A stretch of DNA of 64,000 nt from a virus, in the IMG/VR virus record IMGVR_UViG_3300042291_000228, positions 38,329 to 102,328 of that record; one strand, 5' to 3'. Position numbers and translations under genes: made by a program. Below the pieces are notes generated by a model. It searched no databases. It was not told where the DNA came from and saw nothing but the letters and a program-made list of their open reading frames with translations. Shown in pieces: positions 6,534 through 60,116 of this stretch; position 1 is the stretch's first letter; every line of letters begins with the position of its first letter.

Positions 6534-8282
6534 ATGGCATATCAAGTAGACAGATTTAATGGCACGTTTTTAGTCTCAGTAGAAGACGGTACCATTGATA
6601 CCACTACTGATCTACGCTTCTTAGGTAAAAATTACGCAGGCTATGGCGAAGTACAGAACGAAAATTTCTTACACCTTTTAGAGAATTTTGCCAATACTTC
6701 TGCTCCACCAAGAGCTGTGTTAGGTCAAGTTTGGTACGACAGTGCAAATAAAAAGATTAAATTTTATGATGGATCTAGATTTAGAACATCTGGCGGATCT
6801 GAAGTTAGTGCAACGGCTCCCTCTGGGCTTGTTGCAGGAGATTTTTGGCTAGACACTACCACTGAACAACTGTATGTATCTAATGGTACATCCTTTGTGT
6901 TAGTAGGACCTCAAATAGCAGAAGATCCCGGTGCTACTGCTGTAGAAGTTGTGGTAGTAAAAGACGTTAGTAATGTAAATCACACAATTATTAAATTTAC
7001 TGTTAGCAGCGATACGCAATATATAATGAGTAAGACTGCATTTACATTAAACCCTTCAGTAAATCCTATTACTGGTTTTAGTGAAATCAAGAAAGGTCTT
7101 ACTTTAATTAATACTCCGTCAACAGGAGTAACCACAGATGATCATATTCATTGGGGTACAGCATCTAATGCAGCTAAACTAGGTGGATTTGCTGCCAGCG
7201 AATATCTTAGAAATACCAATGCACTATTTCCAAATGGTGCAAAATTTTATGACGTTGGCTACACCTTAGGTGACACTGATGATTTAAAAGTATTTGTCGA
7301 ATCCGGCGATAGTCCAATAATTTCTAATCAATTAGGATCTTCTGGGTCTCAAACAATTACGATGAGAATTGTTACATCCGGCGGCGATAGAGACTATGTG
7401 TTTGGTGCAGATGCTATCTATCCAGCAGCAAACAATGCAAGAAATCTAGGTGCTACATCTGCAAGATGGGCCACAGTATTTGCCACTACATTTAATGGAG
7501 CATTAACTGGTAATGTAACCGGCAATGTTACAGGAAATGTAACTGGAAATGTCACTGGTGCAGTCAACGGATCGTTAACTGGTAATATAATTTCGTCCAC
7601 AGGAGTCACTGTATTGAATTCTGGCTCCGGCCCAGGCACAGCGGTATATGTGGGATCAGTCAACGGAACTGCCAGTAACGCTTTGCAATTAAACAGTAAA
7701 ATTCAAGACGCTGCTGCCGTTGCTGATACTATTGCTCTGCGAGATGCTAGCGGTAATCTAGTGGCCAATCAATTCACTGGAACGGCTACCCAGGCAAACA
7801 CATTGTTGTGGAGCGGATCGTATAGAACAGCAGCTAGTACTTCGACAGCTAACACCGTTGTGATTAGAGATGCAAGTTCTAACATTTACTGTAATGTTTT
7901 AAATGGAACTGCTACCTCAGCACAGTATGCTGACCTTGCAGAAAAATATCTAGCAGATCAAGAATACGATACCGGAACGGTAGTAGTTGTAGGCGGAGAA
8001 AAAGAAGTCACTGCCAGCACCTGGGGTAAACGTGCCATTGGAGTAGTCAGTGCTAATCCTGCATTTATGATGAATCGAGATCTAGAAGGCGGCACTTACA
8101 TTGCCCTTAAAGGCCGAGTTCCAGTAAAAATAATAGGATCAGTTAAAAAGGGAGACAATCTAATAGCAGCTAATGACGGTTGTGCTTCTGTAGCAGTTCA
8201 CCATTCTAGTGAAGCGTTTGCAGTTGCATTAGAATCTAATAGCGATACAAGTGTAAAACTTGTTGAAGCTGTAATATTGTAA
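6534..8282 (+). CDS. Tail fibre-like structural protein (paralogue 4, YADLAE C-terminal domain)
   Basis: A 582-residue fibre sharing the N-terminal module (NENFLHLLENFANT, GQVWYDS) and the C-terminal YADLAEKY domain with gene 4678-6489. The shaft contains four GNVT repeats encoded by 12-base DNA repeats (7509-7556), suggesting slippage-prone length change. The open frame reaches a TTG at 6531, but the ATG at 6534 is preferred because GGAG lies seven bases before it. The middle (DHIHWGTASNAAKLGG) is typical of fibre shafts. Likely a host-recognition fibre. Confidence 0.8.
   Translation: MAYQVDRFNGTFLVSVEDGTIDTTTDLRFLGKNYAGYGEVQNENFLHLLENFANTSAPPRAVLGQVWYDSANKKIKFYDGSRFRTSGGSEVSATAPSGLVAGDFWLDTTTEQLYVSNGTSFVLVGPQIAEDPGATAVEVVVVKDVSNVNHTIIKFTVSSDTQYIMSKTAFTLNPSVNPITGFSEIKKGLTLINTPSTGVTTDDHIHWGTASNAAKLGGFAASEYLRNTNALFPNGAKFYDVGYTLGDTDDLKVFVESGDSPIISNQLGSSGSQTITMRIVTSGGDRDYVFGADAIYPAANNARNLGATSARWATVFATTFNGALTGNVTGNVTGNVTGNVTGAVNGSLTGNIISSTGVTVLNSGSGPGTAVYVGSVNGTASNALQLNSKIQDAAAVADTIALRDASGNLVANQFTGTATQANTLLWSGSYRTAASTSTANTVVIRDASSNIYCNVLNGTATSAQYADLAEKYLADQEYDTGTVVVVGGEKEVTASTWGKRAIGVVSANPAFMMNRDLEGGTYIALKGRVPVKIIGSVKKGDNLIAANDGCASVAVHHSSEAFAVALESNSDTSVKLVEAVIL
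7509..7556 (+). repeat. Four tandem 12-bp repeats encoding Gly-Asn-Val-Thr
   Basis: Four consecutive imperfect 12-base units (GGTAATGTAACC, GGCAATGTTACA, GGAAATGTAACT, GGAAATGTCACT) encode GNVT four times within a fibre shaft. Differences are nearly all at third codon positions, so the protein repeat is conserved more than the DNA. Partial units continue on both sides. Confidence 0.9.
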
Positions 8283-8291
8283 GGATTTAAA

Positions 8292-9203
8292 ATGGCTGCA
8301 GGTACAGGATTAATAATTGAAGCAGTAGACTATAATTCAATAAGAACAAAAATTATTAGTATTATGGGAACAGGAGCCGGCCAATCAGGCTACGGCCAAA
8401 CACTGCTGAGTTCACCTGTAGCCCTTGGCAATACAGTGACAAAAGCACAATGGGACAATTTGAGATTTGATATATTCAATGCTAGGCTTCATCAAGATGG
8501 ATTATCGCCAACAATTGTTACTGCCACTTCAGGTCAACCTGTGCGATACGGTGCAGGACATCCCAACAATCAATACAACACTCAAGCAGACACCGCAATT
8601 GCAAATAAATTTAACATAGGCACAGGCCAATTTGTTATTGAGTCAGCTACGTCAGCTACTCGAACTACAGCATGGAATTCCAGTCTTACAGCAACAGTAA
8701 CAGTAACATTCGGCACCGCTGATCAAGCTCGTTATTTCTTTAACAGCGGCAGCAAAATAAGATGCTCAAGTTCTAGAATAGGCGGCTCAGCAAGTCCACA
8801 GAATTCTTCGTGGTCAAACGTATTAGATTCTGCCGGTACAGTAGCATTTGGTGGAAATACCGCAGGATTAAATTTTTATAATTTAACAAATAGCTATCAA
8901 ACATTTTTTAACTTGACCTCTAGTGCTCCGTATTCAGCAAATCAATATAGAATTGAAGTAGTATCAAATATAGCCGATAATACAATAGGTGGTGCTACTA
9001 CTTTAACTTTTAGAGTTACATATTCTGATACATATACATACACTGGCACCGGTAGTCCAAGTATTCCGGATAATGTTGACGGCACTTTAACTCTCACAGT
9101 AGATGAACTAAGAGCATCTGGTACATTACAACCGTTAGGCACCGGCCCATTTGTTATAACAAGCCCTACTAGCTACTCCATATCTGGCATATCTGGCTCT
9201 TAA
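8292..9203 (+). CDS. Virion structural protein (tandem pair, copy 1)
   Basis: A 303-residue beta-rich protein, Thr/Ser/Asn-rich, with no membrane segment. It is clearly paralogous to the next gene along its whole length: both have GYGQ near residue 35, a W-D-x-LR-x-DI-x-NAR segment with HQDG, then NRFNIG/NKFNIG and a repeated NSYQ-FF/YSLSSSAPYSANxY block. AAGGA precedes the ATG. It follows the fibres closely and is probably a tail, baseplate or fibre-tip accessory protein; the exact role is unknown. Confidence 0.72.
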   Translation: MAAGTGLIIEAVDYNSIRTKIISIMGTGAGQSGYGQTLLSSPVALGNTVTKAQWDNLRFDIFNARLHQDGLSPTIVTATSGQPVRYGAGHPNNQYNTQADTAIANKFNIGTGQFVIESATSATRTTAWNSSLTATVTVTFGTADQARYFFNSGSKIRCSSSRIGGSASPQNSSWSNVLDSAGTVAFGGNTAGLNFYNLTNSYQTFFNLTSSAPYSANQYRIEVVSNIADNTIGGATTLTFRVTYSDTYTYTGTGSPSIPDNVDGTLTLTVDELRASGTLQPLGTGPFVITSPTSYSISGISGS

Positions 9204-9209
9204 CTCCCG

Positions 9210-9217
9210 TATAAATA
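9210..9217 (+). promoter_or_regulatory. T4 late promoter (perfect TATAAATA)
   Basis: A perfect TATAAATA lies 27 bases upstream of the next ATG, in the 41-base gap between the paralogous structural genes. AAGGA follows as ribosome-binding site. Confidence 0.75.
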
Positions 9218-9244
9218 GTCTTATGAAAAGGATTAAGGACTACC

Positions 9245-10159
9245 ATGGCGGTTAATGACATTATTACAATTGCAGACTATAGTACATTAAGGTCTTCTGC
9301 AATTTCGATCATCGGTAACGGCTCTGCTACTTTTGGTTACGGCCAATCAATACAAAGTGTTGAAAAAATAGCACACGAAAAAATTAGTCAGACTGATTGG
9401 GATTTACTTCGATACGACATCGTTAATGCTCGAACACATCAAGATGGAGTAGCGCCAACAATTACCGATATTAACGAAGGTCAGATTCTTTCTTTTACCA
9501 ATAATGCACAGTACAGCGGCCTTGCCTCAACTGCGGTATCAAATAGATTCAACATAGGCTCGGGTAGATTTTTAACAGAAAGTGCAGTGAGTTCTACTAG
9601 ATCTACATCATGGAATACTTTAGTGGTGTGTGAAGTCACAGCAACTTTTGCTAATGCCGATCTATGCCGTTGGTTTTTCAACAGTGGCGGTCAGATTAGA
9701 ATTCAATCTTCACGAACTGGCGGAACTAGTAATGCTCAAAATAATGATTGGTCTAGTTTAACTACTGCCGCTGGGATGCAGGCATTTGGCAGTCAAACTC
9801 CATCTGCCGGATTTAGTCCAATGAATGGTCAAAATTTTTATAGATTAACTAATTCTTATCAAAATTTCTATTCCTTGTCTTCATCTGCACCGTATTCTGC
9901 AAACAGTTATAATTTAGATGCCAAGTGCGATGTTGCAAATAATTCTAGTGGAACAGCTACTACTGTGTTTATTCGAGTTAGATTTGTTGACAATTATACT
10001 GATCCAGGGCCGGATGGTCCACCTTTCACCGGTGATGATGTTGACGGGACACTAACAGTCACCGTTACTGAAAAAAGAGCCACAGGACCTTTAGTTCCAT
10101 CCGGAACTTTTACCATCACTAGACCTACATATTCAATTACTGCAATCGGCGGAACATAA
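9245..10159 (+). CDS. Virion structural protein (tandem pair, copy 2)
   Basis: A 304-residue paralogue of gene 8292-9203 with its own late promoter. Shared landmarks include FGYGQS, LRYDIVNARTHQDGVAP, WFFNSGGQIR and LSSSAPYSAN. The region before GDDVDGTLTVTV contains a short PGPDGPP insert absent from copy 1. The tandem copies suggest duplication followed by specialisation. No enzymatic motif is visible. Late structural role inferred from promoter and neighbours. Confidence 0.72.
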   Translation: MAVNDIITIADYSTLRSSAISIIGNGSATFGYGQSIQSVEKIAHEKISQTDWDLLRYDIVNARTHQDGVAPTITDINEGQILSFTNNAQYSGLASTAVSNRFNIGSGRFLTESAVSSTRSTSWNTLVVCEVTATFANADLCRWFFNSGGQIRIQSSRTGGTSNAQNNDWSSLTTAAGMQAFGSQTPSAGFSPMNGQNFYRLTNSYQNFYSLSSSAPYSANSYNLDAKCDVANNSSGTATTVFIRVRFVDNYTDPGPDGPPFTGDDVDGTLTVTVTEKRATGPLVPSGTFTITRPTYSITAIGGT

Positions 10160-10181: not shown

Positions 10182-10189
10182 TATAAATA
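10182..10189 (+). promoter_or_regulatory. T4 late promoter (perfect TATAAATA)
   Basis: A perfect TATAAATA sits 26 bases upstream of the preferred start at 10216. It is the last clear promoter before the glycosyltransferase/radical SAM cassette, where genes are nearly contiguous to 17240, so it may drive most of that cassette late in infection. Confidence 0.75.
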
Positions 10190-10215: not shown

Positions 10216-10566
10216 ATGGACGACCGTTTACAAACCGCATTGGATTTTTCAAAGTACCGTCAAACACTTGCAATACAAAGAAAGCTTCTAAAAGAAAAAT
10301 TACAAACTAAATTAACATATGGTACCGCCGGCGGTATTTTTCATATTGACAGATCTTTAATTTCTTTTGTACAATTATGTATTGACCTGGGAAGAGTTTC
10401 TAATATACCGTTAATTGACAGCAATGAAAATCCTGTTCTGATTGACGATCTAGTTCAATTTCGAGATGAAATTTTTGATAGATATTTCTCGGCTAGTTTT
10501 CAATATATGAGCGAATATGATGCTATTAAAAAAAGCAGAACGGTTGAAAAATTAGTAGATTTATGA
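10216..10566 (+). CDS. Small conserved phage protein at head of accessory cassette
   Basis: A 116-residue, mainly helical, charged protein with no recognised domain. The ATG at 10216 is chosen because GAGG lies six bases before it; an in-frame ATG at 10210 is too close to that GAGG. Its 3' end overlaps the first glycosyltransferase by four bases (ATGA), so the two are translationally coupled. It follows a perfect late promoter. It could be a structural adaptor or a cassette component; the sequence does not decide. Confidence 0.65.
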   Translation: MDDRLQTALDFSKYRQTLAIQRKLLKEKLQTKLTYGTAGGIFHIDRSLISFVQLCIDLGRVSNIPLIDSNENPVLIDDLVQFRDEIFDRYFSASFQYMSEYDAIKKSRTVEKLVDL

Positions 10567-11420
10567 AAAGAGGAATATTAATATTTGCTCATAATAGCAG
10601 AGATATTGATTATGCTTTAATGTCTTTAGTATCTGCAAAGTTTGCAAAAGCAAATTTACAAGTTCCGGTGTCTTTAGTAGTTGATAAGTTCACTGTGGAA
10701 TGGATGCAGACATCCAATATCTATGACCTTTCTAAAGAAATTTTTGATAAAATTATAGAAATTGAAAAACCCGTTACTCAAAATATTCGTGTACTCAACG
10801 ATGGATATACTTCAAAAACAGTTCCTTTTGTAAATTCAAATAGGGCTTCAGTTTGGGATCTTACCCCATATGACAGAACGTTATTAATAGACAGTGATTT
10901 TTTAATAATGTCTGATAGACTTAACGAGTATTGGAACATTGATTCAGGTGTAATGTTATCTCCGTCTATGAAAGATGTTAGAGGAGATAGAAAAGGTATT
11001 TTAGATTCTTGGGTATCTGAAACTGGAATTCCCTTATACTGGGCTACCACAGTGATGTTTACTAAAAACAATGAATCTAAAATATTTTTTGATCTAGTAG
11101 ATGTTATTAGAACAAACTATAATTATTTTGCAGATTTATTTAGATTTAATCCTAAACAATACAGAAATGACATTTCTTTTAGCATAGCAAAGCATATGCT
11201 AAATGGTTTTGAAAATAGAGGAGAAGATCTTCCTCCAATATTAACATTACTAGATAAGGATCTAATTCATTCTATTGCTGAGAATCAACTACGGGTTTAT
11301 CTAAATGACAGTGCAAGTGAAGATCATGTAGTTATTGCATCGATCAAAGATTTAGATGTTCATGTAATGAATAAACAAAGCATAATCAGAAATGCAAAAG
11401 AATTCTTGGAGATACTATGA
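10563..11420 (+). CDS. GT-A-type glycosyltransferase-like protein (first pair, copy 1)
   Basis: A 285-residue soluble protein. An N-terminal beta-alpha region (GILIFAHNS, VSLVVDK) precedes a hydrophobic strand ending in the DxD-type motif LIDSDFL at about residues 110-116, as in nucleotide-sugar-binding GT-A enzymes that hold a metal there. Length fits a single catalytic domain. It overlaps genes on both sides by four bases and is followed by a related protein with the same layout. Sugar donor and acceptor cannot be read. Assignment to GT8-like enzymes is tentative. Confidence 0.6.
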   Translation: MKRGILIFAHNSRDIDYALMSLVSAKFAKANLQVPVSLVVDKFTVEWMQTSNIYDLSKEIFDKIIEIEKPVTQNIRVLNDGYTSKTVPFVNSNRASVWDLTPYDRTLLIDSDFLIMSDRLNEYWNIDSGVMLSPSMKDVRGDRKGILDSWVSETGIPLYWATTVMFTKNNESKIFFDLVDVIRTNYNYFADLFRFNPKQYRNDISFSIAKHMLNGFENRGEDLPPILTLLDKDLIHSIAENQLRVYLNDSASEDHVVIASIKDLDVHVMNKQSIIRNAKEFLEIL

Positions 11421-12256
11421 CTTTTGGATACCTCATTGTAATTTCTAAAAACGATTCAGTTAACTATTTGAAATTGGCCTATGCCCTAGCACTAAGCATT
11501 AAAAATACTCAACAAGAAGGATTTGATAACGTAGCATTAGTAACTGATAATATCGAAGACGTTAAAAAACTAAAAAGTTCTTGGGTATTTAATGAAATTA
11601 TTGAATGGAATCAAGAAACTTTTTGGGATGGTCGAAGTTGGATGGATAAGTTAAGCCCCTGGGATAATACCATATGCCTAGATGCAGACATGTTGTTTTT
11701 TAGAGACTACAGTCATTGGGCTGAATACTTTATTGATAACTCTGAATTATATATTCCCAATAAGTCATATACCTATCGCGGAGAGATTGTAAAAGATTTG
11801 TATTATAGAAAAACATTTGAACTTAATGATCTCCCTAATCTGTATTCATTTTATACTTTCTTTAAAAAAGATTCTGAAATAGCAGAAGAGTTTTTTTCCC
11901 TAGGTCGATACATTTTAAAAAATCCTAACGAATTTAAAAATCTATTTCTAGAAAAGTATATTCCAAAAGTTGTAGGCACAGACGAAGCATTTTCTCTAGC
12001 TGCAAAAATTTTAGACATTCAAGATGATATAAGCTATGATTTAGAATTTCCTAAAGTAGTACACTTAAAACCAATGATACAAAATTGGCCTTGGCCTGCT
12101 GATAAAGTTTCTGATCATGTCGGATTTTATTTTGATCTGCAAGGTAAATTAAAAATTGGAAATTATCAGCAACAAGATATTGTTCATTATAACGAAAAAA
12201 ATTATGTAACCGACGAAATCATCAGCATTTTAGAGGAAATACTATGGAAGAAATAA
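11417..12256 (+). CDS. GT-A-type glycosyltransferase-like protein (first pair, copy 2)
   Basis: A 279-residue protein with the same architecture as the preceding gene: N-terminal strand YLIVISKND, a LAYALALSIK helix, then ICLDADMLFF containing the DxD motif at about residues 92-94. A later GTDEAFSLAA segment resembles the C-terminal acceptor-side motif of GT8-like enzymes, and HLKP near residue 215 may supply a metal-binding His. Its ATG overlaps the previous stop (ATGA) and its end overlaps the next gene by 13 bases. Donor and acceptor are unknown. Confidence 0.62.
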   Translation: MTFGYLIVISKNDSVNYLKLAYALALSIKNTQQEGFDNVALVTDNIEDVKKLKSSWVFNEIIEWNQETFWDGRSWMDKLSPWDNTICLDADMLFFRDYSHWAEYFIDNSELYIPNKSYTYRGEIVKDLYYRKTFELNDLPNLYSFYTFFKKDSEIAEEFFSLGRYILKNPNEFKNLFLEKYIPKVVGTDEAFSLAAKILDIQDDISYDLEFPKVVHLKPMIQNWPWPADKVSDHVGFYFDLQGKLKIGNYQQQDIVHYNEKNYVTDEIISILEEILWKK

Positions 12257-12834
12257 TTGATTTTGACAGTTGGTTACAGCAATATACTGCGCCACAGGTA
12301 GAATACTGGGCAATTTTTGAACCTACTACCGGTGAAGTTACTGGAATTTATCCTGATATTGCTGCCAGTGACAAACAATATAAAATAAAAATTGATAGAG
12401 ATCTAGCAGAAGATATACATAATGGAATAGTTCAATTGAATTCTTGTTTTGTAGACATGGATTCTGAAACAGTTGAAATTGTCACTAGGCACAGTCTTGT
12501 TAAGATTGACGATGTATTGCATAGAGTAATTGATAAAAAATATGTGCCCGATCAAAAAAATGATATTATTATTCAATATAATGAATTAGAAAATAAAATA
12601 ATTGTTGTTTTACACAATTCGATTAAAACTAGAAAGATTCAATGGGACGGAAGTACTGAAATGCAGTTTTTTATCACGGCTTACAATGATCCACATAATC
12701 TTTACCAAACAATAGTTTTTCAATTAAAAGATTTAGAACAAGGTTCTAAAGAATTTATCTATACTGCTCCCCACAAAAGATTTAGTATTTTTACAAGAAG
12801 AATATTAAAAAATTATGTTTTTGAAAAAATATGA
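12244..12834 (+). CDS. Unknown protein embedded in the glycosyltransferase cassette
   Basis: A 196-residue, acidic, probably beta-rich protein. No catalytic motif, membrane segment or signal peptide is visible. The N-terminal half (WAIFEPTTGEVTGIYP) looks like a structural or binding domain, and the C-terminal part has alternating strands. It overlaps the previous gene by 13 bases and the next by four, so it is made together with the glycosyltransferases. It may be a virion component, a scaffold or the target of modification, but this is only inference. Confidence 0.6.
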   Translation: MEEIIDFDSWLQQYTAPQVEYWAIFEPTTGEVTGIYPDIAASDKQYKIKIDRDLAEDIHNGIVQLNSCFVDMDSETVEIVTRHSLVKIDDVLHRVIDKKYVPDQKNDIIIQYNELENKIIVVLHNSIKTRKIQWDGSTEMQFFITAYNDPHNLYQTIVFQLKDLEQGSKEFIYTAPHKRFSIFTRRILKNYVFEKI

Positions 12835-13706
12835 AAACCGTAGAACTAGACATTGTATTTTTAAGCTATGATGAACCTAATGCAGATCTGCATTATGCAG
12901 ACTTATGCAATAAAGTTCCTTGGGCCAAAAGAGTACACGGCATAAAAGGCAGTGATGCTGCTCACAAGGCCGCAGCAGAACTAAGCGAAACCGAATGGGT
13001 AATTACAGTTGATGCCGATAATATAGTAGATGTTAATTTTTTTAACTTAGACATTAAAGAAGATCCTAAAATTGAAGTATGTAGTTGGACTGCAAAAAAT
13101 CGTATCAACGGATTGTTGTATGGTAATGGCGGCCTAAAAATGTGGAAAAAAGATTTCATTTTAAATATGAAAAGTCACGAAGCTAGTGATAGTGATAGAG
13201 CGCAAGTAGATTTTTGTTGGGAATCAGGATATCACCAATTTAAAGATTGCTACAGTGAAACAGTTATCACAGGTAGTCCATTCCAAGCATGGAGAGCAGG
13301 ATTCCGCGAAGGTGTTAAAATGACACTGCATGACGGAGTTCGAGTGCCTCCTCAAGAAATTAAAGAACGAGTGTGGTGGCATAATTTACATAGACTGCGT
13401 ATGTGGTCAACTGTGGGCATGCACGAAGAAAACGGTGCATATGCAATTCTTGGCGCACGTATGGGAACATGGATGACCAACTGCACAAACTGGAATTATG
13501 TTGATGTGAGAGATTTTGAAATCTTAAAAAATATTTACGAACAAAATGTTAATCATGAATCAATAGAAGATGACATAAAAGACTTAGGAATAAAAATTAA
13601 ATATTCTTTAGGGTTTGATTATCCATACTTTGATACACAACACAGTAAGTATATGTTTGACATGTATACCGAATCTTTCCGGTTGTTCAACACATATCAT
13701 AGGTAA
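12831..13706 (+). CDS. Glycosyltransferase-like protein (second pair, copy 1)
   Basis: A 291-residue protein of a phage glycosyltransferase-like family. It begins with DIVFLSYDEPNADLHY, has HGIKGSDAAHKAAAE (a GT2-like nucleotide-binding helix) and the acidic motif VITVDADNIVD at about residues 57-67. A later WRAGFREGVKM block matches the next gene (WKSAFRECVKL). The two copies therefore form a second related pair, distinct from the preceding pair. ATGA overlap with the upstream gene. Glycan and donor unknown. Confidence 0.62.
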   Translation: MKTVELDIVFLSYDEPNADLHYADLCNKVPWAKRVHGIKGSDAAHKAAAELSETEWVITVDADNIVDVNFFNLDIKEDPKIEVCSWTAKNRINGLLYGNGGLKMWKKDFILNMKSHEASDSDRAQVDFCWESGYHQFKDCYSETVITGSPFQAWRAGFREGVKMTLHDGVRVPPQEIKERVWWHNLHRLRMWSTVGMHEENGAYAILGARMGTWMTNCTNWNYVDVRDFEILKNIYEQNVNHESIEDDIKDLGIKIKYSLGFDYPYFDTQHSKYMFDMYTESFRLFNTYHR

Positions 13707-13710
13707 TATA

Positions 13711-14406
13711 GTGTTTGAGATATTTTTTATCAGTTATCAAGAACCTAATGCAGACGAAAATTGGACAAAATTAAAATCTAGGTTTCCTATAGCTCAAAGA
13801 ATTCATGGAGTTAAAGGAATTCACCAAGCCCATATAGCAGCAGCAAAGCAGTCACTAACAAAAATGTTTTATGTTGTTGACGGAGACTCAGTGATTGCAG
13901 ATGATTTTAATTTTAACTATGAAGTAAACAAATTAGAAAAAGAACATGTGCATGTATGGCACAGCCAAAATCCTGTTAATGGATTAGTCTACGGATACGG
14001 TGGTGTAAAACTATTACCTAAGTTAGAAACAATTAATATGGATGTTACCTGTCCCGACATGACCACTAGTATATCTAAACATTTTAAAGAAATGCCAACG
14101 ATATCTAATTTCACTGCATTTAACACTGACCCGTTTAATACTTGGAAGTCTGCATTTCGAGAATGTGTTAAATTGTCTAGTAGAATAATCGATAGACAAC
14201 AAGATTATGAAACTTCTGAAAGATTAAAAATATGGTGTTCTGAGGGGAATGACAAACCATTTGGCAAATTTGCAATATCGGGAGCGTTAGCTGGTAGAAA
14301 ATTTGGTTTAGCTAATCGAAATATTTTAAAAGAACTTAAAAAAATCAACGATTTTGAATGGTTAAAGGAACAATATGAGCAACGAGCAAAAGATATTTGT
14401 TCTTAA
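13711..14406 (+). CDS. Glycosyltransferase-like protein (second pair, copy 2), GTG start
   Basis: A 231-residue paralogue of gene 12831-13706: FFISYQEPNADENW, RIHGVKGIHQAHIAAA, then VVDGDSVIADDF carrying a DxD-type motif. The open frame extends upstream to 13615, but alignment with the paralogue and AGGT seven bases before GTG at 13711 place the start there, five bases after the previous stop. NPVNGLVYGYGG parallels KNRINGLLYGNGG in the paralogue. It overlaps the next gene by 32 bases. Likely the same type of reaction with a different specificity. Confidence 0.62.
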   Translation: MFEIFFISYQEPNADENWTKLKSRFPIAQRIHGVKGIHQAHIAAAKQSLTKMFYVVDGDSVIADDFNFNYEVNKLEKEHVHVWHSQNPVNGLVYGYGGVKLLPKLETINMDVTCPDMTTSISKHFKEMPTISNFTAFNTDPFNTWKSAFRECVKLSSRIIDRQQDYETSERLKIWCSEGNDKPFGKFAISGALAGRKFGLANRNILKELKKINDFEWLKEQYEQRAKDICS

Positions 14407-15748
14407 CGATAAAAGAGATAAAATAAATTTAATTAGTCCTAGCTTCTGTACGGCTAAATGGTTACAAACTACCTTATACCTACAGAACGGATATAATCAC
14501 AGTTGCCATCATCCTAGTCCCCATAAAATTCCTATTGAAGAAGTAAAAAATAATCCAGCAGCATTACACAACAGCCAACATAAGAAAAAACAAAGAGAAA
14601 TGATGTTGGCAGGCGAACGTCCTGCTGAATGTGATTATTGTTGGAAGATTGAAGATTTAGATAAAAAATACTTTTCGGATAGACATTATAAGTCAGCTGA
14701 TTATTGGGCCTGGGACAGAATCGATGAAATTGCAACCAGTGATCCTACAACCAACATTTTTCCTAGTTATTTAGAAGTTAGCTTTTCTAATGCTTGTAAT
14801 CTTAAATGCAGCTATTGCAGTCCGGAGATTAGTAGCAAATGGTTGGAAGAAATTAATCAATACGGACCTTATCCTATCGCCGAAAGTAATAATGATGTTA
14901 GTCAGTATAAGAGTATTGGTAGATATCCGTATGCACACAATGCCGACAATCCCTATGTTGATGCATTTTGGAAATGGTTTCCCGAAGCATTACCTCATTT
15001 GCGAGTATTTCGAATTACTGGCGGCGAACCGTTGATGAGTAAAGATACATGGAAGGTACTAGAATATATTAGAAATAATCCACAGCCTAATTTGGAAATT
15101 GCAATAAACACAAACTTGTCAGTTGAAAATAAACTTATTGATCGATTTATTTCTGAAGTTAATTTAATAAAGCCTTTAGTTAAAAAGATAGACATATATA
15201 CCAGCCTCGAAAGCATTGAACATCGTGCAGAATATTCTAGATACGGATTAGATTACGCTCGTTGGTCGCATAACATTCGACGTTGTTTATCTGAAACACA
15301 ATCAACAGTAGCAATAATGACTACTATTAACATATTAAGCATATCTAGTTTTACAGAGTTTATTAATATGGTTATGCAGCTACGAAAAGATTACAATCCT
15401 AGTTGCGAATTTAATAGAGTGCCAATTAGCATAAACTACCTCCGCTGGCCAGCGCATCTTAGTTCTACATTAATGCCTTTGGAAATGAGGCAAAAATATG
15501 CTAAAGAAATTTTAGAAATTTCAAAAAGTTGGCTAAAATATAACAGTACAGAAAAATTTGCTAGACTTTATTTAGAAGAATGGGATCAAATAAAAAGATT
15601 TTGTGATTATTTTATTACAGCATCTAGCGATTTAGAAAAAAGAAAAGATTTTGTTAAATTTATTAACGAATATGATCGTAGGAGATCTACAAATTTCTTA
15701 ACTACCTTTCCTGAATACGCAGAATTTTTAAAAGAATGGAATGCCTAA
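14375..15748 (+). CDS. Twitch-type radical SAM protein, copy 1
   Basis: A 457-residue radical SAM protein. The SAM-cluster motif CNLKCSYC (Cys141, 145, 148) and the GGEP motif (ITGGEPLMS) are intact. An N-terminal cysteine set at about 25, 44, 86 and 89 (SFCTAKWL, SCHHP, PAECDYCWK) resembles the twitch/SPASM-like auxiliary iron-sulfur module found ahead of the radical SAM domain in twitch-containing proteins. Such enzymes often modify peptides, but no precursor peptide is obvious here. It overlaps the upstream and downstream genes by 32 and eight bases. Substrate unknown. Confidence 0.8.
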   Translation: MSNEQKIFVLNDKRDKINLISPSFCTAKWLQTTLYLQNGYNHSCHHPSPHKIPIEEVKNNPAALHNSQHKKKQREMMLAGERPAECDYCWKIEDLDKKYFSDRHYKSADYWAWDRIDEIATSDPTTNIFPSYLEVSFSNACNLKCSYCSPEISSKWLEEINQYGPYPIAESNNDVSQYKSIGRYPYAHNADNPYVDAFWKWFPEALPHLRVFRITGGEPLMSKDTWKVLEYIRNNPQPNLEIAINTNLSVENKLIDRFISEVNLIKPLVKKIDIYTSLESIEHRAEYSRYGLDYARWSHNIRRCLSETQSTVAIMTTINILSISSFTEFINMVMQLRKDYNPSCEFNRVPISINYLRWPAHLSSTLMPLEMRQKYAKEILEISKSWLKYNSTEKFARLYLEEWDQIKRFCDYFITASSDLEKRKDFVKFINEYDRRRSTNFLTTFPEYAEFLKEWNA

Positions 15749-17240
15749 GAAATCATACGAAACATTAGTTGATTATCGTAAGCGAGTAATTGACATCAAA
15801 AGCGAAAGTTTTTGTGCAGCCAAATGGTTAAATGCCACAATATGGTTAGGCAGTGGTTCAACAACCAGTTGTCATCATCCACCTGCACACAATATTCCTT
15901 TAGAAGAATTGAAAGATAATCATACTGCAATTCATAATACCAAGCATAAAAAACTTATGCGAAAAATGATGATCGAAGGCGACAAGCCAGCGGAGTGTGA
16001 GTATTGTTGGAAAATTGAAGATATTGGTAAGGATAATATTTCAGATAGGATATTTAAGACTGTTATCTATAAAGACCAAGAGATAGAATCAATATATAAC
16101 AACCCATGGGATCACAATACAGAACTTAAAACTCTTGAAATTAGTTTTGACAGAGTATGCAATTTAGCATGTTCATACTGTAATGCAAGTTTTAGTACCA
16201 CGTGGGCTAAAGATATAAAGAAAGTTGGAGCATATCAAAATTTAGTCAGCGATGGTGCAGCAGCCTTCCAACAGGATGGGTCGTGGGTAGAACCTTACAG
16301 TAACGATGCCGATAATCCGTACATACAGGCATTTTGGAAATGGTGGGATGCTGGACTTAGTCAAAGTCTAGATGAATTAAGAATCACTGGCGGCGAACCC
16401 CTAATGAGCGGACATACTTGGAAATTGATAGATTGGTTCAATAATCAAAACAGTAAAATGCGTTTTGCTATTAATAGCAATCTTATTGCCAAAGATGATA
16501 TTATAGATAAACTTATAGAAAAAACAAAAAACATCAATCAATTTCATCTATATACAAGTTGCGAAGCAGTTGGCGATCATGCAGAATATATTCGAGATGG
16601 ATTAGATTATAAAGTATGGAAGAAAAATGTTATCAGAGTTTTAGAGGAAGGAAACTATCAAGGAGTTCATGTCATGATGACAATCAACAGTCTTTGTCTT
16701 TTCAGTATCACTGACTTTTTTGATGAAATGTTAGAACTAAAAAAACAATATAATAACAATCCTACCATTAGTGTTAACCTATTGAGATTTCCTAGTTTTC
16801 AAAGCCCGCTTGCATTACCTGACCATATAAAAGATCATTGCAGAATTAATTTAGAACAGTGGTATAATCGACACAAGGATACTCAATTATTACACGAATT
16901 TGAAAAAGCCAGTATTGCTCGATTGATAGATTACCTTATAGTAGTTGATGCTCCGCACCGAAGAACTAGTAACAAGATTACGCTATGGAGAGATTTTAAA
17001 AGTTTTTATCAACAATATGATCAACGACGTAAAAAAACTATACAAGTTTTTCCTCAGATATTGTTAGATTGGTTAGATAAAATTCCCGAAACTAAATTAG
17101 ATAAGATACAGAGTCTAGTTAATGGTAATAGTACCAAACAGTACGACAATGATCAAGAATTAAAAAAATTGGCCGAAAGCGAAGGCTGGATACTAAATCC
17201 TGACAATAAAAATATCAATACTCCACTGGCTAAATATTAA
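15741..17240 (+). CDS. Twitch-type radical SAM protein, copy 2
   Basis: A 499-residue tandem paralogue of the preceding gene. N-terminal cysteines again fall at about 25, 44, 86 and 89, the radical SAM motif CNLACSYC at Cys140, 144 and 147, and RITGGEPLMS is present. The copy is longer mainly because of a C-terminal extension of about 40 residues. The matching cysteine register shows that both copies keep two predicted clusters and are probably active. The two could act sequentially, as a heterodimer, or on different substrates. Confidence 0.8.
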   Translation: MPKKSYETLVDYRKRVIDIKSESFCAAKWLNATIWLGSGSTTSCHHPPAHNIPLEELKDNHTAIHNTKHKKLMRKMMIEGDKPAECEYCWKIEDIGKDNISDRIFKTVIYKDQEIESIYNNPWDHNTELKTLEISFDRVCNLACSYCNASFSTTWAKDIKKVGAYQNLVSDGAAAFQQDGSWVEPYSNDADNPYIQAFWKWWDAGLSQSLDELRITGGEPLMSGHTWKLIDWFNNQNSKMRFAINSNLIAKDDIIDKLIEKTKNINQFHLYTSCEAVGDHAEYIRDGLDYKVWKKNVIRVLEEGNYQGVHVMMTINSLCLFSITDFFDEMLELKKQYNNNPTISVNLLRFPSFQSPLALPDHIKDHCRINLEQWYNRHKDTQLLHEFEKASIARLIDYLIVVDAPHRRTSNKITLWRDFKSFYQQYDQRRKKTIQVFPQILLDWLDKIPETKLDKIQSLVNGNSTKQYDNDQELKKLAESEGWILNPDNKNINTPLAKY

Positions 17241-17271
17241 CCATAATAACACATATTTCTAATAGACTATA

Positions 17272-18063
17272 ATGTCAAATAAATTTCAAAAATTACATAT
17301 AACTCTTGATAATATTTGTGAGCTAAATCATTTTGTCTATACTCATTCTACAAAAGAAAAAATGCTAGGAAGAGAGTATTCAACAGTGTATTTGCATTCT
17401 GCAGAACCAGGTGCTATAAACGATCTTTGGCAATATCACATAAACAAATATGGCTACCGAGGTAACAATTGGTCTTTTAATAAAGATGCCATTGCTTTTT
17501 TTGGATGTAGTGTTACGTTTGGAATCGGAGTAGAAAAAGACATAGCAACTGTGGTACAGGAGAATATAAAAACAGAATGTTATAATATTGGGCAGCCCGG
17601 CGCATCAGCTATAAACATACTCAAGACGTTTAGTAATTTTATTCAATATTGTCCTGTAAAAACAGCAATTATAACTCTTCCTACAGCCGACAGGATTCAT
17701 CGTCCAGAATTTAATAATTCTTTTTCAGCATGGGCTTATTTGAATTTAATTCCTAATTGGATAAATCCAAATAACAAAGAATTACACCACCACGCCTATA
17801 GCTTTTTTAGTACTGATACTTGTTTAGCATACCTATATGATTACATAAGAATGGCTGAATTAACAGCTAAAGTATTCGATGTTGAAATAATATGGTCTTC
17901 GTGGGATAAAGAAACTTTAGATTTTTTAAGGTCAATTGTTCATAATCAAAAAACTATACCGATAGGAAATTTTAGTGTTGATTGTGGTAGAGACAATCTA
18001 CATCCAGGACCTATTTTTGTAAAAAATTGGTCGGATATAATTATTAATAATTTACCCCAATAA
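17272..18063 (+). CDS. SGNH/GDSL-like hydrolase
   Basis: A 263-residue protein with SGNH hydrolase blocks: FFGCSVTFGIGV around the predicted nucleophile Ser80, NIGQPGAS (block II Gly), and C-terminal DNLHPGP with Asp241 and His244 as the other catalytic residues. The family includes O-acetyl and carbohydrate esterases acting on glycans. No signal peptide is visible. It closes the plus-strand cassette, 31 bases after the second radical SAM gene. It could trim acyl groups from the cassette product; that is inference. No clear SD precedes the ATG. Confidence 0.68.
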   Translation: MSNKFQKLHITLDNICELNHFVYTHSTKEKMLGREYSTVYLHSAEPGAINDLWQYHINKYGYRGNNWSFNKDAIAFFGCSVTFGIGVEKDIATVVQENIKTECYNIGQPGASAINILKTFSNFIQYCPVKTAIITLPTADRIHRPEFNNSFSAWAYLNLIPNWINPNNKELHHHAYSFFSTDTCLAYLYDYIRMAELTAKVFDVEIIWSSWDKETLDFLRSIVHNQKTIPIGNFSVDCGRDNLHPGPIFVKNWSDIIINNLPQ

Positions 18064-22450: not shown

Positions 22451-23301
22451 GTACCCCACTCATTTTTAAATAGTGGCACTTGTAGTCTATCGCTATAACG
22501 CCAGCCACGTTTCATAGCTGCCAATGCTACATTCTTTGCGTTAAGTGTATAAACACTTTCTACACCACCTACTGGCATTAGATATATATGACCGGTAAAC
22601 CCAGCATGTCGAAATGCACCTGCCGCACACTCTGCATCTTTAATATCTTCTTCCGTTGCCACTACAAATTTCAAATATGCTGTACCAACTTGTTCGTACT
22701 CGCATACAATCTCTGGACAGATAGCTTCTTCCCACTTCTCACCACTTGCTGGCAGTTTAGCACTTACACTAAATGTAACTTCTCTGCCTACTACGCTATT
22801 CCATTTAGCCAAGTATGCTTTAAATTCTGGTGTAAGCTTCTGAGTACCGTTTGTTTCGAAGGTAATCTCTTTCAAGTCACGCATCTTAGTATTGTTTAAC
22901 AAGTCTGGGTAAGCACGTTGCCAGCCTAGCAACGGCTCTCCGCCTGTGATGACCAAGTGTTCATCGACCCAGTAATCCTGTGGAAGAATTTCCATAATGC
23001 GATCTGTGATAGCTTCGCTTGTAAGCATCGGCGACAAATCTTTAAAGTCTGGATGCCAACTAGCATAACTGTCACAGCCTGTGCTAACTAGGGGTAAGTC
23101 TTCATACTTCTGAAAAGACTCTATTATTGTATGTGTAGCCGCAATGTCAGTTGCTTCGTGACTAACTTCTCCACGCGGCATACCAAAGCCAGCACATTTG
23201 AAATTACAACCAAATGTGCGCAGAAACACACTCGGTACACCCATATATCTACCCTCTCCTTGTATAGAGTAGAAAAGTTCCGCTATCTTAATCTTTGACA
23301 T
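22447..23301 (-). CDS. queE: 7-carboxy-7-deazaguanine synthase-like radical SAM enzyme (QueE)
   Basis: A 284-residue QueE-like enzyme, expected to convert 6-carboxytetrahydropterin to 7-carboxy-7-deazaguanine. Family signatures are the start ELFYSIQGEGRYMG, FLRTFGCNFKC, and LVITGGEPLLGWQ. The cluster loop is unusual: Cys32 and Cys36 are present, but the expected third Cys is Phe39. A CDSYASW element resembling the usual CDTxYA appears at Cys76 after an insert of about 36 residues and is the likely third ligand. It supports the FolE, QueD-like and DpdA-like genes of this region. Confidence 0.82.
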   Translation of the reverse strand: MSKIKIAELFYSIQGEGRYMGVPSVFLRTFGCNFKCAGFGMPRGEVSHEATDIAATHTIIESFQKYEDLPLVSTGCDSYASWHPDFKDLSPMLTSEAITDRIMEILPQDYWVDEHLVITGGEPLLGWQRAYPDLLNNTKMRDLKEITFETNGTQKLTPEFKAYLAKWNSVVGREVTFSVSAKLPASGEKWEEAICPEIVCEYEQVGTAYLKFVVATEEDIKDAECAAGAFRHAGFTGHIYLMPVGGVESVYTLNAKNVALAAMKRGWRYSDRLQVPLFKNEWGT

Positions 23302-24490
23302 CTGTATCCTTTATTATTTCTAAGTTTAACATATTATTCGATAAATGTAAATTCTTTTGGAGAGTTTTACAATTATCCCCGTGCCATCTATTATAGTTGG
23401 CTGTATTTGATAAAACTTTACCACAGTGTTTACAAGTTTTTTTTGGTTTGTCTAACATTCTTTGTCTTCGCATTTCTAACATTTCAGGAGATAATGTTTT
23501 ACCTAATCTGCGTTCACTCATTGCTTTGCGTTCTTCTTCAGATTTTTTCTTTCCAAAATTAGGATTGTTTTCTCCTCTTGTCCACCACCTATCTACTTTC
23601 TTGTTACTTTCAGAAATCTTCCTTCTGTGTTCTTCGGATTTTGGGCGTTTTCCTACTTCTCTGGATGCTTCACGCTGTCTGTCTTTACCTTCCGGAGTAT
23701 ATACTTTGTTTTTAGCCGATGCTCTCATATGTTCAATCTGCTCCGGCGTGTAAATTTCTTTCCAACTTTTGCCTTTTCGAGCAGATGCCGCTTCTCTCAT
23801 TTTTTCTGTATGGGCAGGATCTCGTTTTACACCTTTTGTTCTACCACTAGTATTTTTGCGTTGTTTTATCCCTTCAGGTGAATTAAAAAATGCTTGACGT
23901 TTAGCTATCATCATTTCTTTGTATTCTGGATCAGCCCAACGTTTAATGATCGCGGCACGTTGTCTTTCTTTTCCTTCAGGAGTTACTTTAGACGGTTTAC
24001 CCCAATTAGGATTTTCTGGGCCGCGTTTAAACTCTTTTAACTTACTTTTCTCGCCAATCTTCTTTTTAGATTCTTCTGAGTGTTTTCGTCCTACCCAAGT
24101 GCCGCCTTCTTTGGCATACTTCTCTTTTAACATTTGAGAATAGTGTTTTCTAAATGTTTCATACATCCTACTGGAAATTGTATAGGTATGATTTACGCCG
24201 CGTTCCTTAGTAGTCATTTTGTTAATGAATGTATTAAACGCAAATGCCATTTTGCTACCGTATATACCTTCAAACTTCATTTTCCATAACAATGCGTGAG
24301 CAATGTAATGTTCGCGGGCAGTTAGTTGGACTACGTTTGATTTGATATTATCGCCGCCGAAACTACGAGGAATAATATGATGTGTTTCTTTATACCCTTG
24401 TATAGAACCTCGTAGTTGTGCTTTGTGTATGAGGGATTCATACCACTTACTATATTTGCTTTCTACAAATTTTACGGGCCAGTTTATCAT
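23288..24490 (-). CDS. HNH homing endonuclease with NUMOD3 repeats
   Basis: A 400-residue free-standing homing-type endonuclease. The HNH nuclease core is HHIIPRSFGGDNIKSN followed by LTAREHYIAH (about residues 38-70). The rest has several NUMOD3-like DNA-binding motifs (GRKHSEESKKKIGEKSK, GKRPKSEEHRRKISESNKK, KKSEEERKAMSERRLGKTLS) and a C-terminal zinc-finger-like CKHCGKVLSN with a later His/Cys pair. The ATG at 24490 is used instead of a TTG one codon upstream. Placed between queE and a MazG-like gene, it overlaps queE by 14 bases and looks like a selfish insertion. Confidence 0.85.
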   Translation of the reverse strand: MINWPVKFVESKYSKWYESLIHKAQLRGSIQGYKETHHIIPRSFGGDNIKSNVVQLTAREHYIAHALLWKMKFEGIYGSKMAFAFNTFINKMTTKERGVNHTYTISSRMYETFRKHYSQMLKEKYAKEGGTWVGRKHSEESKKKIGEKSKLKEFKRGPENPNWGKPSKVTPEGKERQRAAIIKRWADPEYKEMMIAKRQAFFNSPEGIKQRKNTSGRTKGVKRDPAHTEKMREAASARKGKSWKEIYTPEQIEHMRASAKNKVYTPEGKDRQREASREVGKRPKSEEHRRKISESNKKVDRWWTRGENNPNFGKKKSEEERKAMSERRLGKTLSPEMLEMRRQRMLDKPKKTCKHCGKVLSNTANYNRWHGDNCKTLQKNLHLSNNMLNLEIIKDTDVKD

Positions 24491-24556
24491 CAATGTTAAG
24501 CAGAATTAGAACAGCATACCTATATAGTGTTCTTCACTCTGTAATTTTAATCTTAC

Positions 24557-28488: not shown

Positions 28489-29109
28489 TCATTTTATTGA
28501 CAATGATGCTTCTCGAAAGCCAAGATTTCCTTTAACGAACACGTTAAATGCAATAGAAATTCTATCATCCTTGGAATTGTTTATTTCCACTGAATGCATT
28601 AGATTTGAAGGAAATATAATTATTTGATTTTCGATTGGAGCAATAGACCATGTATCACAATTAAAAATATTCCATTCTGCAAATCCTAATTGTAATGTAG
28701 GAGAAGAAATATTTAAATATTTTTGATATTTATGAAATGTAATCCGCCCGGTATCTTCTGCTGCCTTTATATATAACACTCCTGAAAACAACGAATTGCT
28801 ATGAGTATGTTCTTTTGCAAACCCCTCCGGCAAAAATTTAACAGCCCACGAAGTTGTTATATAAAATTCTACTTCGGGTTTAAATTTTAAAAGATTATAA
28901 GCATAATCATCAAATGCGTTGAGAATTTTATTTCTAATTTCTAAACACCTAGGGTCATCTAATAATGTAACACTTTCAGTAATAAACCCGTTGTTATCAG
29001 ACATCGGGTAAAACTCTAAATCTAAAATGTAGTTAACACTTTTAGATGATAGTGGGGCTATATCAGATGTGTAAAGAGGAACACCAAATAAAGAGGAAGC
29101 TGAAGGCAT
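28489..29109 (-). CDS. 2OG-Fe(II) oxygenase, copy 2
   Basis: A 206-residue protein of the 2OG-FeII oxygenase type common in T4-like marine phages. Predicted ligands: His101 and His103 in KEHTHSNSLFSGVLYI, His172 in IIIFPSNLMHSVEI, and the 2-oxoglutarate-binding Arg183 in DDRISIAFNVFV. It is diverged from copy 1, so not a recent duplication. Substrate unknown. Confidence 0.8.
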   Translation of the reverse strand: MPSASSLFGVPLYTSDIAPLSSKSVNYILDLEFYPMSDNNGFITESVTLLDDPRCLEIRNKILNAFDDYAYNLLKFKPEVEFYITTSWAVKFLPEGFAKEHTHSNSLFSGVLYIKAAEDTGRITFHKYQKYLNISSPTLQLGFAEWNIFNCDTWSIAPIENQIIIFPSNLMHSVEINNSKDDRISIAFNVFVKGNLGFREASLSIK

Positions 29110-51820: not shown

Positions 51821-52546
51821 TTATTCTCCTCTTAACTTTTCTAATTTGGCAATGTAGTTGGCCATCATGTGATCAAACACGCCAATATACTTTTGACCTT
51901 TTGCCCTGGCTTTCAGTCTACTGCGGGCCATGTCTTTTACTCGTTGCCAAGGAGTTAGATCTCTAAACTCACCATTGAAGTTCATGTACTTGTGTGTGCC
52001 GTGATGATCGAAACCCATGAGTCTAAAAGGAACCTTGGTCACATCATCGCAGTTGTTCTGTACTCTATAATGTTCAACAGTCACACTCTTAACAAATGCC
52101 TTATCACCTACTCTAGGCGAGCCAAATGTTACCAACGCAACCACACGATCCTGCATACGACTAGCAGCAATGGTTGCCATAGCAGCACCTAGGCTGTGTC
52201 CAGTTACATATACATTACCTGGATTGGCTTCTAGTGCAGCAGTGATACTGGGCCATAGTTTGTTGATTTCGCCTTTGAAGCCAACATGTACCTTGCCGCC
52301 ACAGGCTTCGATGTTCTTACCAGACTTTAGGTCTGCCAACACATCTGACTTTTCAGTTACCTCAGTGCCTCTAAATGACAACACGGTAATAGTACCGTTG
52401 GTCAATAGATATGCCTGTGCCCCGTTGATGTCAAAGAATTGAATAATATTGTATCCCAAGGCTTTGAACTTGGCAGTGGCGGTTTTAGGATTGTCATAGG
52501 TAGTTTGCGCTATGTTGGCAAACTCTAATAGTAGTTGTGTTTTCAT
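51821..52546 (-). CDS. Class 3 (fungal-type) lipase
   Basis: A 241-residue alpha/beta hydrolase of the lipase class 3 family. The nucleophile elbow is TGHSLGAAMA (Ser118). NNCDDVTKVPF supplies the catalytic Asp (167 or 168), and GFDHHGTHKYMNF the His (181 or 182), the same order as fungal lipases. LSFRGTE near 57-63 provides the oxyanion hole. No signal peptide, so it would reach membranes through the holin or act at the inner face. It probably degrades phospholipid or acyl glycan during lysis. Unusual in a lysis cassette. Confidence 0.85.
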   Translation of the reverse strand: MKTQLLLEFANIAQTTYDNPKTATAKFKALGYNIIQFFDINGAQAYLLTNGTITVLSFRGTEVTEKSDVLADLKSGKNIEACGGKVHVGFKGEINKLWPSITAALEANPGNVYVTGHSLGAAMATIAASRMQDRVVALVTFGSPRVGDKAFVKSVTVEHYRVQNNCDDVTKVPFRLMGFDHHGTHKYMNFNGEFRDLTPWQRVKDMARSRLKARAKGQKYIGVFDHMMANYIAKLEKLRGE

Positions 52547-58960: not shown

Positions 58961-59329
58961 TTATTTGCTCACAAACGGAGCCAACTCCGGAGGCACCCAC
59001 CCTATAGGTTTCAATACCTTACCGTCTTCACGTTTACGAACCTTACCAGTCTCTGAATCGATCTTGGCAAAGTTGGTTTTCATGACTTCTTTCCAAGCAC
59101 CTTCAGCATCTGCACCCATACTGTGGATAGCACCAATAGTAACAACTAAAATGTCAATCAGTGCATCTAGTTGTTCTACCCTATCTTCTGCCAGTGTGGC
59201 TTCTAGTAATTCTTGGTGCTCTTCGTTAACGAGTTTAATATACATTGCGTATTGCTGCTCATCAAACTTGTCGACGCTTTGATCACATGCTCGCATAAAC
59301 TTCTCTTGGTCTCTAAAAGGATTAGTCAT
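58961..59329 (-). CDS. MazG-like / PRA-PH-type nucleotide pyrophosphohydrolase
   Basis: A 122-residue helical NTP-PPase. The metal-binding acids lie in LVNEEHQELLEA and EQLDALIDILVVTIGA (ExxE/ExxD pattern); a C-terminal KREDGKVLKPIGWVPPEL is typical of phage homologues. It may clean non-canonical nucleotides or alter dNTP and alarmone pools. Diverged from the first MazG-like gene. GGAG precedes the ATG; a terminator follows. Confidence 0.82.
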   Translation of the reverse strand: MTNPFRDQEKFMRACDQSVDKFDEQQYAMYIKLVNEEHQELLEATLAEDRVEQLDALIDILVVTIGAIHSMGADAEGAWKEVMKTNFAKIDSETGKVRKREDGKVLKPIGWVPPELAPFVSK

Positions 59330-60116
59330 TTTTTCTCCTATGTTTTTTGTTAATTGTTTCTACTCTATCTAACAGTTCAAAGTCTACGTTCTTATCAATG
59401 GCTTCCATGATTATTGCAGCAACGTCTTTAGGAAAGCATCCACCTCCCCAACCGTATTGTCCGTCAGGTCCGGGAACATTCATATGTGTATTACCAATTC
59501 GATTATCTGCTTTTGATAGATACTTTAAATCGTCCCAAGCAACTCCTTCTGCGTCTGCTAACATTTTAAAATCATTCATAAATGTTACCTTAGTTGCTAG
59601 ATAGGTGTTCATCATATATTTGTACAGCGAAGCAGTTTTTATATCTACTATGGTAAACTGGTCATGTACTAACGGAACACCTTGATGAATTGCTGTCCTA
59701 GCTTTAACACACCAATCGTAGCTGCCACCGAGTACAAAGTAGTTTGAGTTAGCATAGTCTGCAACATTATTGGCCGCAGTTAAAAACTCCGGACAGTAGA
59801 CTAAGTTGGGATATTGTTCCTGTAGACGAGCATAGACACTGGGTGGAGCAGTGACCTTGCTGATAACAGGAATTTGTTTATTGATGTTTACAAACAACAA
59901 CTCTTTTAGAGTGTCTTCTAGAATAGCTGTATCACAATGGCCGTCTTCGGTTGACGGACTTGGAACGCAGATAAAAATAGCATCACAGTCTACAAATTGA
60001 TCTAGAGATGCAGAATCTGCTAATTTGGGATCTCTAATAACAAGTTCGGCTTTGTGTTGGTAAGACCATCCAATAGCTTGACCCACAAAGCCAAACCCTA
60101 TAATACCTATACGCAT
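59322..60116 (-). CDS. Short UDP-glucose/nucleotide-sugar dehydrogenase-like protein
   Basis: A 264-residue protein with the NAD-binding start GIIGFGFVGQAIG, a CDAIFICVPSPS segment, YCPEFLTAANNVADY, and the active-site motif GGGCFPKDVAAI with the catalytic Cys. It matches the NAD-binding and central domains of UDP-glucose 6-dehydrogenases but stops about 120 residues short of the usual 380-440, lacking the C-terminal UDP-binding domain. It may supply a uronic-acid-type donor, or act as a dimer with altered specificity. AGGA precedes the ATG. Confidence 0.78.
   Translation of the reverse strand: MRIGIIGFGFVGQAIGWSYQHKAELVIRDPKLADSASLDQFVDCDAIFICVPSPSTEDGHCDTAILEDTLKELLFVNINKQIPVISKVTAPPSVYARLQEQYPNLVYCPEFLTAANNVADYANSNYFVLGGSYDWCVKARTAIHQGVPLVHDQFTIVDIKTASLYKYMMNTYLATKVTFMNDFKMLADAEGVAWDDLKYLSKADNRIGNTHMNVPGPDGQYGWGGGCFPKDVAAIIMEAIDKNVDFELLDRVETINKKHRRKND

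Follow-up and report, generated by a model that had tools for sequence, protein, structure and literature searches.

The window analysed here is a 64,000-nucleotide stretch that corresponds to positions 38329-102328 in a virus record 102 kb long. It encodes a T4-type DNA polymerase and clamp loader, along with fibre-like proteins and a protein with a tail collar domain, and no tRNA genes were found in it. Nine open reading frames (ORFs) on the plus strand, named A to I, form a cassette at positions 10216-18063 on the 3' side of the tail-fibre genes (Table 1). Neighbouring genes overlap by 4 (A/B, B/C, and D/E), 13 (C/D), 32 (F/G), or 8 bases (G/H), and a gap of 31 bases separates H from I. The ORF caller had placed the start of F at TTG 13615, with a 92-base overlap with E, whereas the relatives begin at GTG 13711, a start that leaves E and F 4 bases apart. 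With this one amendment, the run of nine nearly contiguous genes directly behind the fibres is as first described. The GC content of the cassette (0.32-0.34) is lower than that of its flanks, and none of the nine proteins has a predicted membrane segment. No gene for a flippase, a lipid-carrier enzyme, or a membrane protein was found in the cassette, nor was an exporter or a precursor peptide found in the phage operon. The two fibre-like proteins upstream contain 25-26% Ser plus Thr, and in other phages, too, relatives of these proteins stand ahead of the cassette; no modification signature was detectable in the fibre itself.

Table 1. Features of the cassette and its upstream flank, in window coordinates.
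Feature	Position	Strand	Evidence or remark
Two mutually related fibre-like proteins (303 and 304 aa)	8292..10159	+	Directly 5' of the cassette; candidate substrates
T4-type late promoter motif TATAAATA	10182..10189	+	At the operon head, 5' of A
A, conserved small protein	10216..10566	+	First gene of the operon; conserved among relatives
B, GT8/glycogenin-like glycosyltransferase candidate, paralogue of C	10563..11420	+	Homology to C; invariant D110/D112
C, GT8/glycogenin-like glycosyltransferase candidate	11417..12256	+	Profile match to glycogenin, E = 2.7e-7
D, conserved protein	12244..12834	+	Another family, X4, takes its place in other phages
E, GT-A-fold glycosyltransferase candidate	12831..13706	+	AlphaFold model, Foldseek; invariant D61xD63
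F, GT-A-like paralogue of E	13711..14406	+	GTG start amended by comparison with relatives
G, predicted N-twitch radical SAM enzyme (NF033640)	14375..15748	+	Near-constant operon member
H, predicted second N-twitch radical SAM enzyme (NF033640), accessory paralogue of G	15741..17240	+	NCBIfam score, alignment
I, SGNH-fold hydrolase, accessory	17272..18063	+	Catalytic residues, GDSL profiles

The four glycosyltransferase-like proteins fall into two homologous pairs, B with C (hhalign 99.9%) and E with F (hhalign 100%). Alignments of B, E, and F with their relatives show invariant DxD residues, and in that of C the same is true of D91 within LDAD. C is tied to the GT8 family by its glycogenin profile match and B through C, its own match to glycogenin being weak (E = 0.014). 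Since both are divergent and no Pfam family model exceeds its cut-off for either, they are named GT8-like only. The AlphaFold model of E (pLDDT 91.9) finds GT-A enzymes as its best Foldseek matches (top E = 8e-5), in which the core alone aligns and the TM-scores are low. E reaches only 15.0 bits with the Pfam GT2 model Glyco_tranf_2_4 against a cut-off of 27.5, and F has no GT2 match; the GT-A fold, to be read with those low TM-scores, and the DxD motif together place E and F among the glycosyltransferase candidates. The F proteins at L079:16703-18685, L005:1912-3927, and L028:8029-10029 are extended at the N-terminus by one to four repeats of ~110 aa each, degenerate GT-A-like units with the motifs THVFKN...YDG...KKEIDIVAS, which the F of the window does not have.

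A had zero matches in the phage collection, and its candidacy as a PqqD/RRE adaptor was rejected (hhalign probability <1%). D was likewise rejected as PqqD (hhalign probability <1%) and, also by hhalign, as an S74 protein. Profile searches of the PDB with A, D, E, and G returned nothing credible.

G and H score 345 and 303 bits, respectively, with the N_Twi_rSAM model NF033640, the cut-off of which is 170. In alignments of relatives, the CxxxCxxC cysteine triads and the four N-terminal auxiliary-cluster cysteines (C25, C44, C86, and C89) are invariant in both proteins; the GGEP motif is invariant in G, and its Pro is nearly invariant in H. On these grounds both are predicted N-twitch radical SAM enzymes, a family for which the literature searched contained no functional study. 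SuiB and anSME modify proteins or peptides, and BlsE and DesII are sugar-nucleoside and sugar enzymes. The H model matches SuiB, anSME, BlsE, and MoaA about equally well in Foldseek, with DesII also among the closest folds; hence, the fold cannot separate peptide from sugar substrates. In I, the catalytic Ser80, Asp241, and His244 are invariant in 19 relatives, and GDSL esterase profiles match (E = 0.0014); no Pfam model exceeds its cut-off, DUF6473 lying just below it (25.9 bits against 27).

The motif TATAAATA occurs three times in the whole window against 6.5 copies expected by chance; therefore, its presence in this window proves nothing alone. When 75 distinct regions upstream of A were compared among the relatives, 15 contained a perfect copy, where about 1.0 is expected; none of the 433 regions in front of B, C, E, G, or H did. 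Because the motif is over-represented at A and does not occur ahead of these five genes, the cassette reads as one late operon, and since the motif stands only at the head, the enzymes would be expressed together with the structural genes. It is solely the comparison across relatives that marks TATAAATA as a genuine, if predicted, head-of-operon promoter. The original prediction had named a perfect late promoter, two related glycosyltransferase-like pairs with DxD motifs, a tandem radical SAM pair with N-terminal auxiliary cysteines, and an SGNH hydrolase, and each of these stands.

We scanned IMG/VR for relatives of G, which gave 320 confirmed stretches, of which the best 80 were used, and for relatives of E, which gave at least 598 confirmed matches. 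Among the matches listed, the gene order fibre-A-B-C-D-E-F-radical SAM is nearly invariant in viral contigs. In order to avoid bias, the presence of the radical SAM gene was assessed only in loci retrieved via E or the fibre, and not via the radical SAM gene itself, that contain E and F and at least 1.5 kb after F. An N-twitch radical SAM gene lies within three genes of F in 51 of 51 testable loci retrieved by E (among the matches listed) and 17 of 17 retrieved by the fibre, or 68 of 68 when pooled (again among the matches listed). After dereplication on E, this holds in 46/46 loci among the matches listed, with A to F and the radical SAM gene staying together. Likewise, A, B, and C plus D or its substitute X4 directly precede E in 57/59 (among the matches listed) and 19/19 loci, counting only loci with enough upstream genes. 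The dN/dS ratio of about 0.08-0.22 indicates that the cassette is under purifying selection.

In close relatives, whose fibres are mostly 82-87% identical, F is followed by one G-type or one R-type radical SAM gene alone, or by G and then X8 genes. Since H and I are absent there, they are dispensable accessories, and since either type can fill the slot after F, the radical SAM types are interchangeable. The minimal conserved unit in these comparisons is A to F plus one radical SAM gene; no nucleotide-sugar synthesis gene was found in that unit. The 3' part of the cassette (H, I, R, and X8) varies strongly between phages, and the accessory genes in relatives are sugar enzymes, namely an epimerase, a nucleotide-sugar dehydrogenase, and a carbamoyltransferase. 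The single radical SAM gene after F is swapped between the distant G-type and R-type subgroups (L315, L316, L317, L320, and L321 versus L304, L307, and L310). X8 (e.g., L059:18390-19589) is a frequent accessory family of about 400 aa with a sub-threshold sulfatase-like match only. The expected conservation of gene order is thus found, and the conserved order, together with a radical SAM gene behind the glycosyltransferase genes in every testable locus among the matches listed, makes the proposed joint glycosyltransferase-radical SAM pathway well supported as a prediction from sequence. The pathway was also called self-contained, for which there is no support: the minimal unit has neither nucleotide-sugar synthesis nor a membrane protein, and H and I are dispensable.

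Relatives of G in the genome collection belong mostly to Bdellovibrionota, many on long chromosomal contigs. A match is present in 32 of the 57 genomes in the order of one Bdellovibrionota genome and in 14 of the 61 in the family of another, and a single Bdellovibrionota genome can contain over a dozen homologous stretches. These relatives are ~35-47% identical to G and H, and both subgroups are present; compared with the phage genes, they are mostly chromosomal and dispersed, without A to D, and lie beside PqqD, S74, flagellin, or polysaccharide genes. Phage and bacterial sequences are repeatedly intermixed in the tree, in the G as well as the H subgroup, which argues for gene exchange. The bacterial neighbours of G relatives comprise other radical SAM genes, glycosyltransferases, methyltransferases, epimerases, PqqD, and flagellin; the flanking families include GT2, GT1, epimerase, and aminotransferase. 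In locus L136, an F-G-SGNH trio lies inside a polysaccharide locus, and L139 contains the set E-F-methyltransferase-like-G.

PqqD is an adaptor for peptide-modifying radical SAM enzymes. S74 is a chaperone domain found in phage spikes and in Bdellovibrio adhesive fibres (PMC10769870). Among 96 distinct Bdellovibrionota relatives of G and H, 12 lie at most two genes from PqqD, 7 near S74, and 3 near flagellin; G has flagellin genes at its side in three Bdellovibrionaceae loci. In a near/far control, enrichment was found for PqqD (p = 0.01) and other radical SAM genes (p = 0.0004) and was marginal for SGNH (p = 0.04); for S74 and flagellin around the bacterial G genes it was not significant, and these neighbours are therefore used only as a suggestion. 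Taken that way, the PqqD, S74, and flagellin neighbours hint at a recurring link to surface-filament proteins. In Bacteriovoracales, a small set of G, PqqD, and S74, accompanied by aminotransferase and SGNH genes, is found repeatedly. The small S74 proteins of the radical SAM-PqqD-S74 sets in L119, L121, L132, L256, L258, and L264 share the N-terminal stretch YxFGGIxEFNLxEIE, possibly a leader for modification by PqqD and the radical SAM enzyme. Adjoining the set in L121, the minus-strand gene at 7515-9809 encodes a protein with a pilin-type methylation motif at its N-terminus and fibre-like repeats after it.

Among the cultured phages in the collection, A, C, E, and H matched nothing, and G had a weak match in the Vibrio phages K566 and K567. 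These phages carry, in one island (VPK566_0302-0314) with PagP, four N-twitch-type radical SAM genes, two of which exceed the family cut-off, along with two GT8 genes and one GT4-like gene. The order in K566 (L344, 152952-177761) is radical SAM-GT8-radical SAM-radical SAM-GT4, with radical SAM-GT8 on the other strand and PagP nearby. The describers read the island as an anti-defence island replacement with glycosyltransferase and lipid A genes (PMC12028318). It resembles the cassette in that N-twitch-type radical SAM genes are interleaved with glycosyltransferase genes, but its radical SAM genes belong to the R-type subgroup and PagP is present; no relatives of the window fibre or of A to F were detected near it. 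By analogy, this pairing of GT8 and N-twitch radical SAM genes strengthens the functional link and would offer a tractable model.

The serotype-conversion (gtr) cassette utilizes a membrane flippase and membrane-bound transferases, unlike A to I, and a RiPP biosynthetic cluster contains a precursor peptide and PqqD/RRE, which are both missing from the phage operon, A and D not being PqqD-like. To our knowledge, virion glycosylation in mycobacteriophages has no radical SAM partner. There, phage glycosyltransferases modify capsid and tail tube proteins, rather than fibres, as far as the citing article relates it (Freeman et al. 2023, cited in PMC12619734). In pelagimyophages, the host recognition cluster (HRC), bounded by VrlC and gp14, is a hypervariable island in which fibre genes are accompanied by radical SAM cassettes and glycosyltransferases (Zaragoza-Solas et al. 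2020, PMC7029224). Like the window, it combines, in a T4-like phage, tail fibres with radical SAM cassettes and several glycosyltransferases, GT8 being the most represented; however, a fixed operon of glycosyltransferase pairs and radical SAM is not described there, whereas A to F plus a constant radical SAM gene are nearly invariant here. Many radical SAM genes, 12 in all, are likewise reported from an environmental T4-like virus but are discussed there in terms of iron-sulfur metabolism, with no link to fibres or glycosyltransferases (PMC5332604). The claim that the cassette is not a standard phage module therefore holds in part: fibre islands with glycosyltransferase and radical SAM genes and a radical SAM-rich T4-like virus have been described, but the invariant operon, the obligatory yet exchangeable radical SAM gene, the head promoter, and the sharing of enzymes with predatory bacteria are new as far as our searches reach.

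Most likely, the operon of these uncultured aquatic T4-like viruses puts an unusual sugar-based modification on their own fibres or on the host surface. We favour, tentatively and with an even chance not quite granted, a late operon whose products assemble a glycan on a virion protein and tailor it chemically, the likeliest such protein being an adjacent fibre protein. Host nucleotide sugars would be put onto newly made fibre in the cytoplasm by B and C together with E and F, while A and D would serve as adaptors or help in fibre assembly as partners. One or more N-twitch radical SAM enzymes would then take a hydrogen from the sugar or peptide to give an oxidised, epimerised, or cross-linked product, and the SGNH hydrolase might trim or move an acyl group. 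For this scheme, we infer the acceptor, the sugar, the reaction, and the benefit, which could lie in protecting the virion or in changing how it binds its receptor. The late expression, the strict placement behind the fibres, the soluble enzymes, and the PqqD, S74, and flagellin neighbours speak for a protein as the acceptor, the simplest candidate being the fibre; against this, the fibre linkage may reflect a host-recognition island alone.

A somewhat less probable but serious alternative is that the operon alters host lipopolysaccharide or capsule late in infection, blocking adsorption of rival phages or progeny to infected cells and debris (superinfection exclusion). The accessory sugar genes, the polysaccharide neighbours, and PagP point to such an envelope glycan: bacterial F-G-SGNH sits in a polysaccharide locus, the families flanking bacterial G genes include GT2, GT1, epimerase, and aminotransferase, and the K566/K567 island joins N-twitch radical SAM and GT8 with the lipid A enzyme PagP (PMC12028318). 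The same role was proposed for the glycosyltransferases of the HRC, where GT8, the family that C resembles, was tied to lipopolysaccharide (PMC7029224). Yet the cassette has no membrane protein, flippase, or lipid-carrier enzyme, carries a late-promoter motif, and is found strictly behind the fibre genes and not elsewhere in the genome. That the cassette makes a small molecule or a modified peptide, RiPP-like or a glycosylated metabolite, whether secreted or kept inside the cell, is improbable; the placement of the modelled radical SAM enzyme in the SuiB/anSME fold group and the PqqD-radical SAM-S74 sets in Bacteriovoracales would suit it, but the phage operon has no precursor peptide, PqqD-like adaptor, or exporter and is strictly linked to fibres. 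Least credible of all is a chance gathering of unrelated cargo in a hypervariable island with no joint pathway, which the variable 3' part and low GC might suggest but which the constant co-occurrence, single head promoter motif, and low dN/dS largely refute for A to F plus radical SAM; accessory genes may still fit it.

Returning to fibre modification, a broader proposal, which we advance with more doubt, is that phages have a post-translational pathway dedicated to tail-fibre proteins, which glycosyltransferases would modify jointly with N-twitch radical SAM enzymes, the latter having spread by gene exchange between these phages and predatory Bdellovibrionota and acting there on the predators' surface filaments (S74 fibres and flagellin). 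The constant core with its interchangeable radical SAM gene offers a defined enzyme set and a short list of acceptors, the two fibre proteins or the host envelope, and the swap between G-type and R-type in close relatives is a natural experiment on the function of the radical SAM gene. If the fibres are modified, the host range of these aquatic phages would not be explained by fibre sequence alone.

Several other genes of the window, all on the minus strand, were recorded outside the cassette. A 2OG-Fe(II) oxygenase (phrog_81, 28492-29109) is a second possible modifying enzyme. A short UDP-glucose/GDP-mannose dehydrogenase of 264 aa (59325-60116) contains the N-terminal and central domains only. 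A NUMOD3-containing ORF (23288-24493), probably a homing endonuclease, adjoins a QueE-like gene, and a class 3 lipase domain protein is encoded at 51824-52546.
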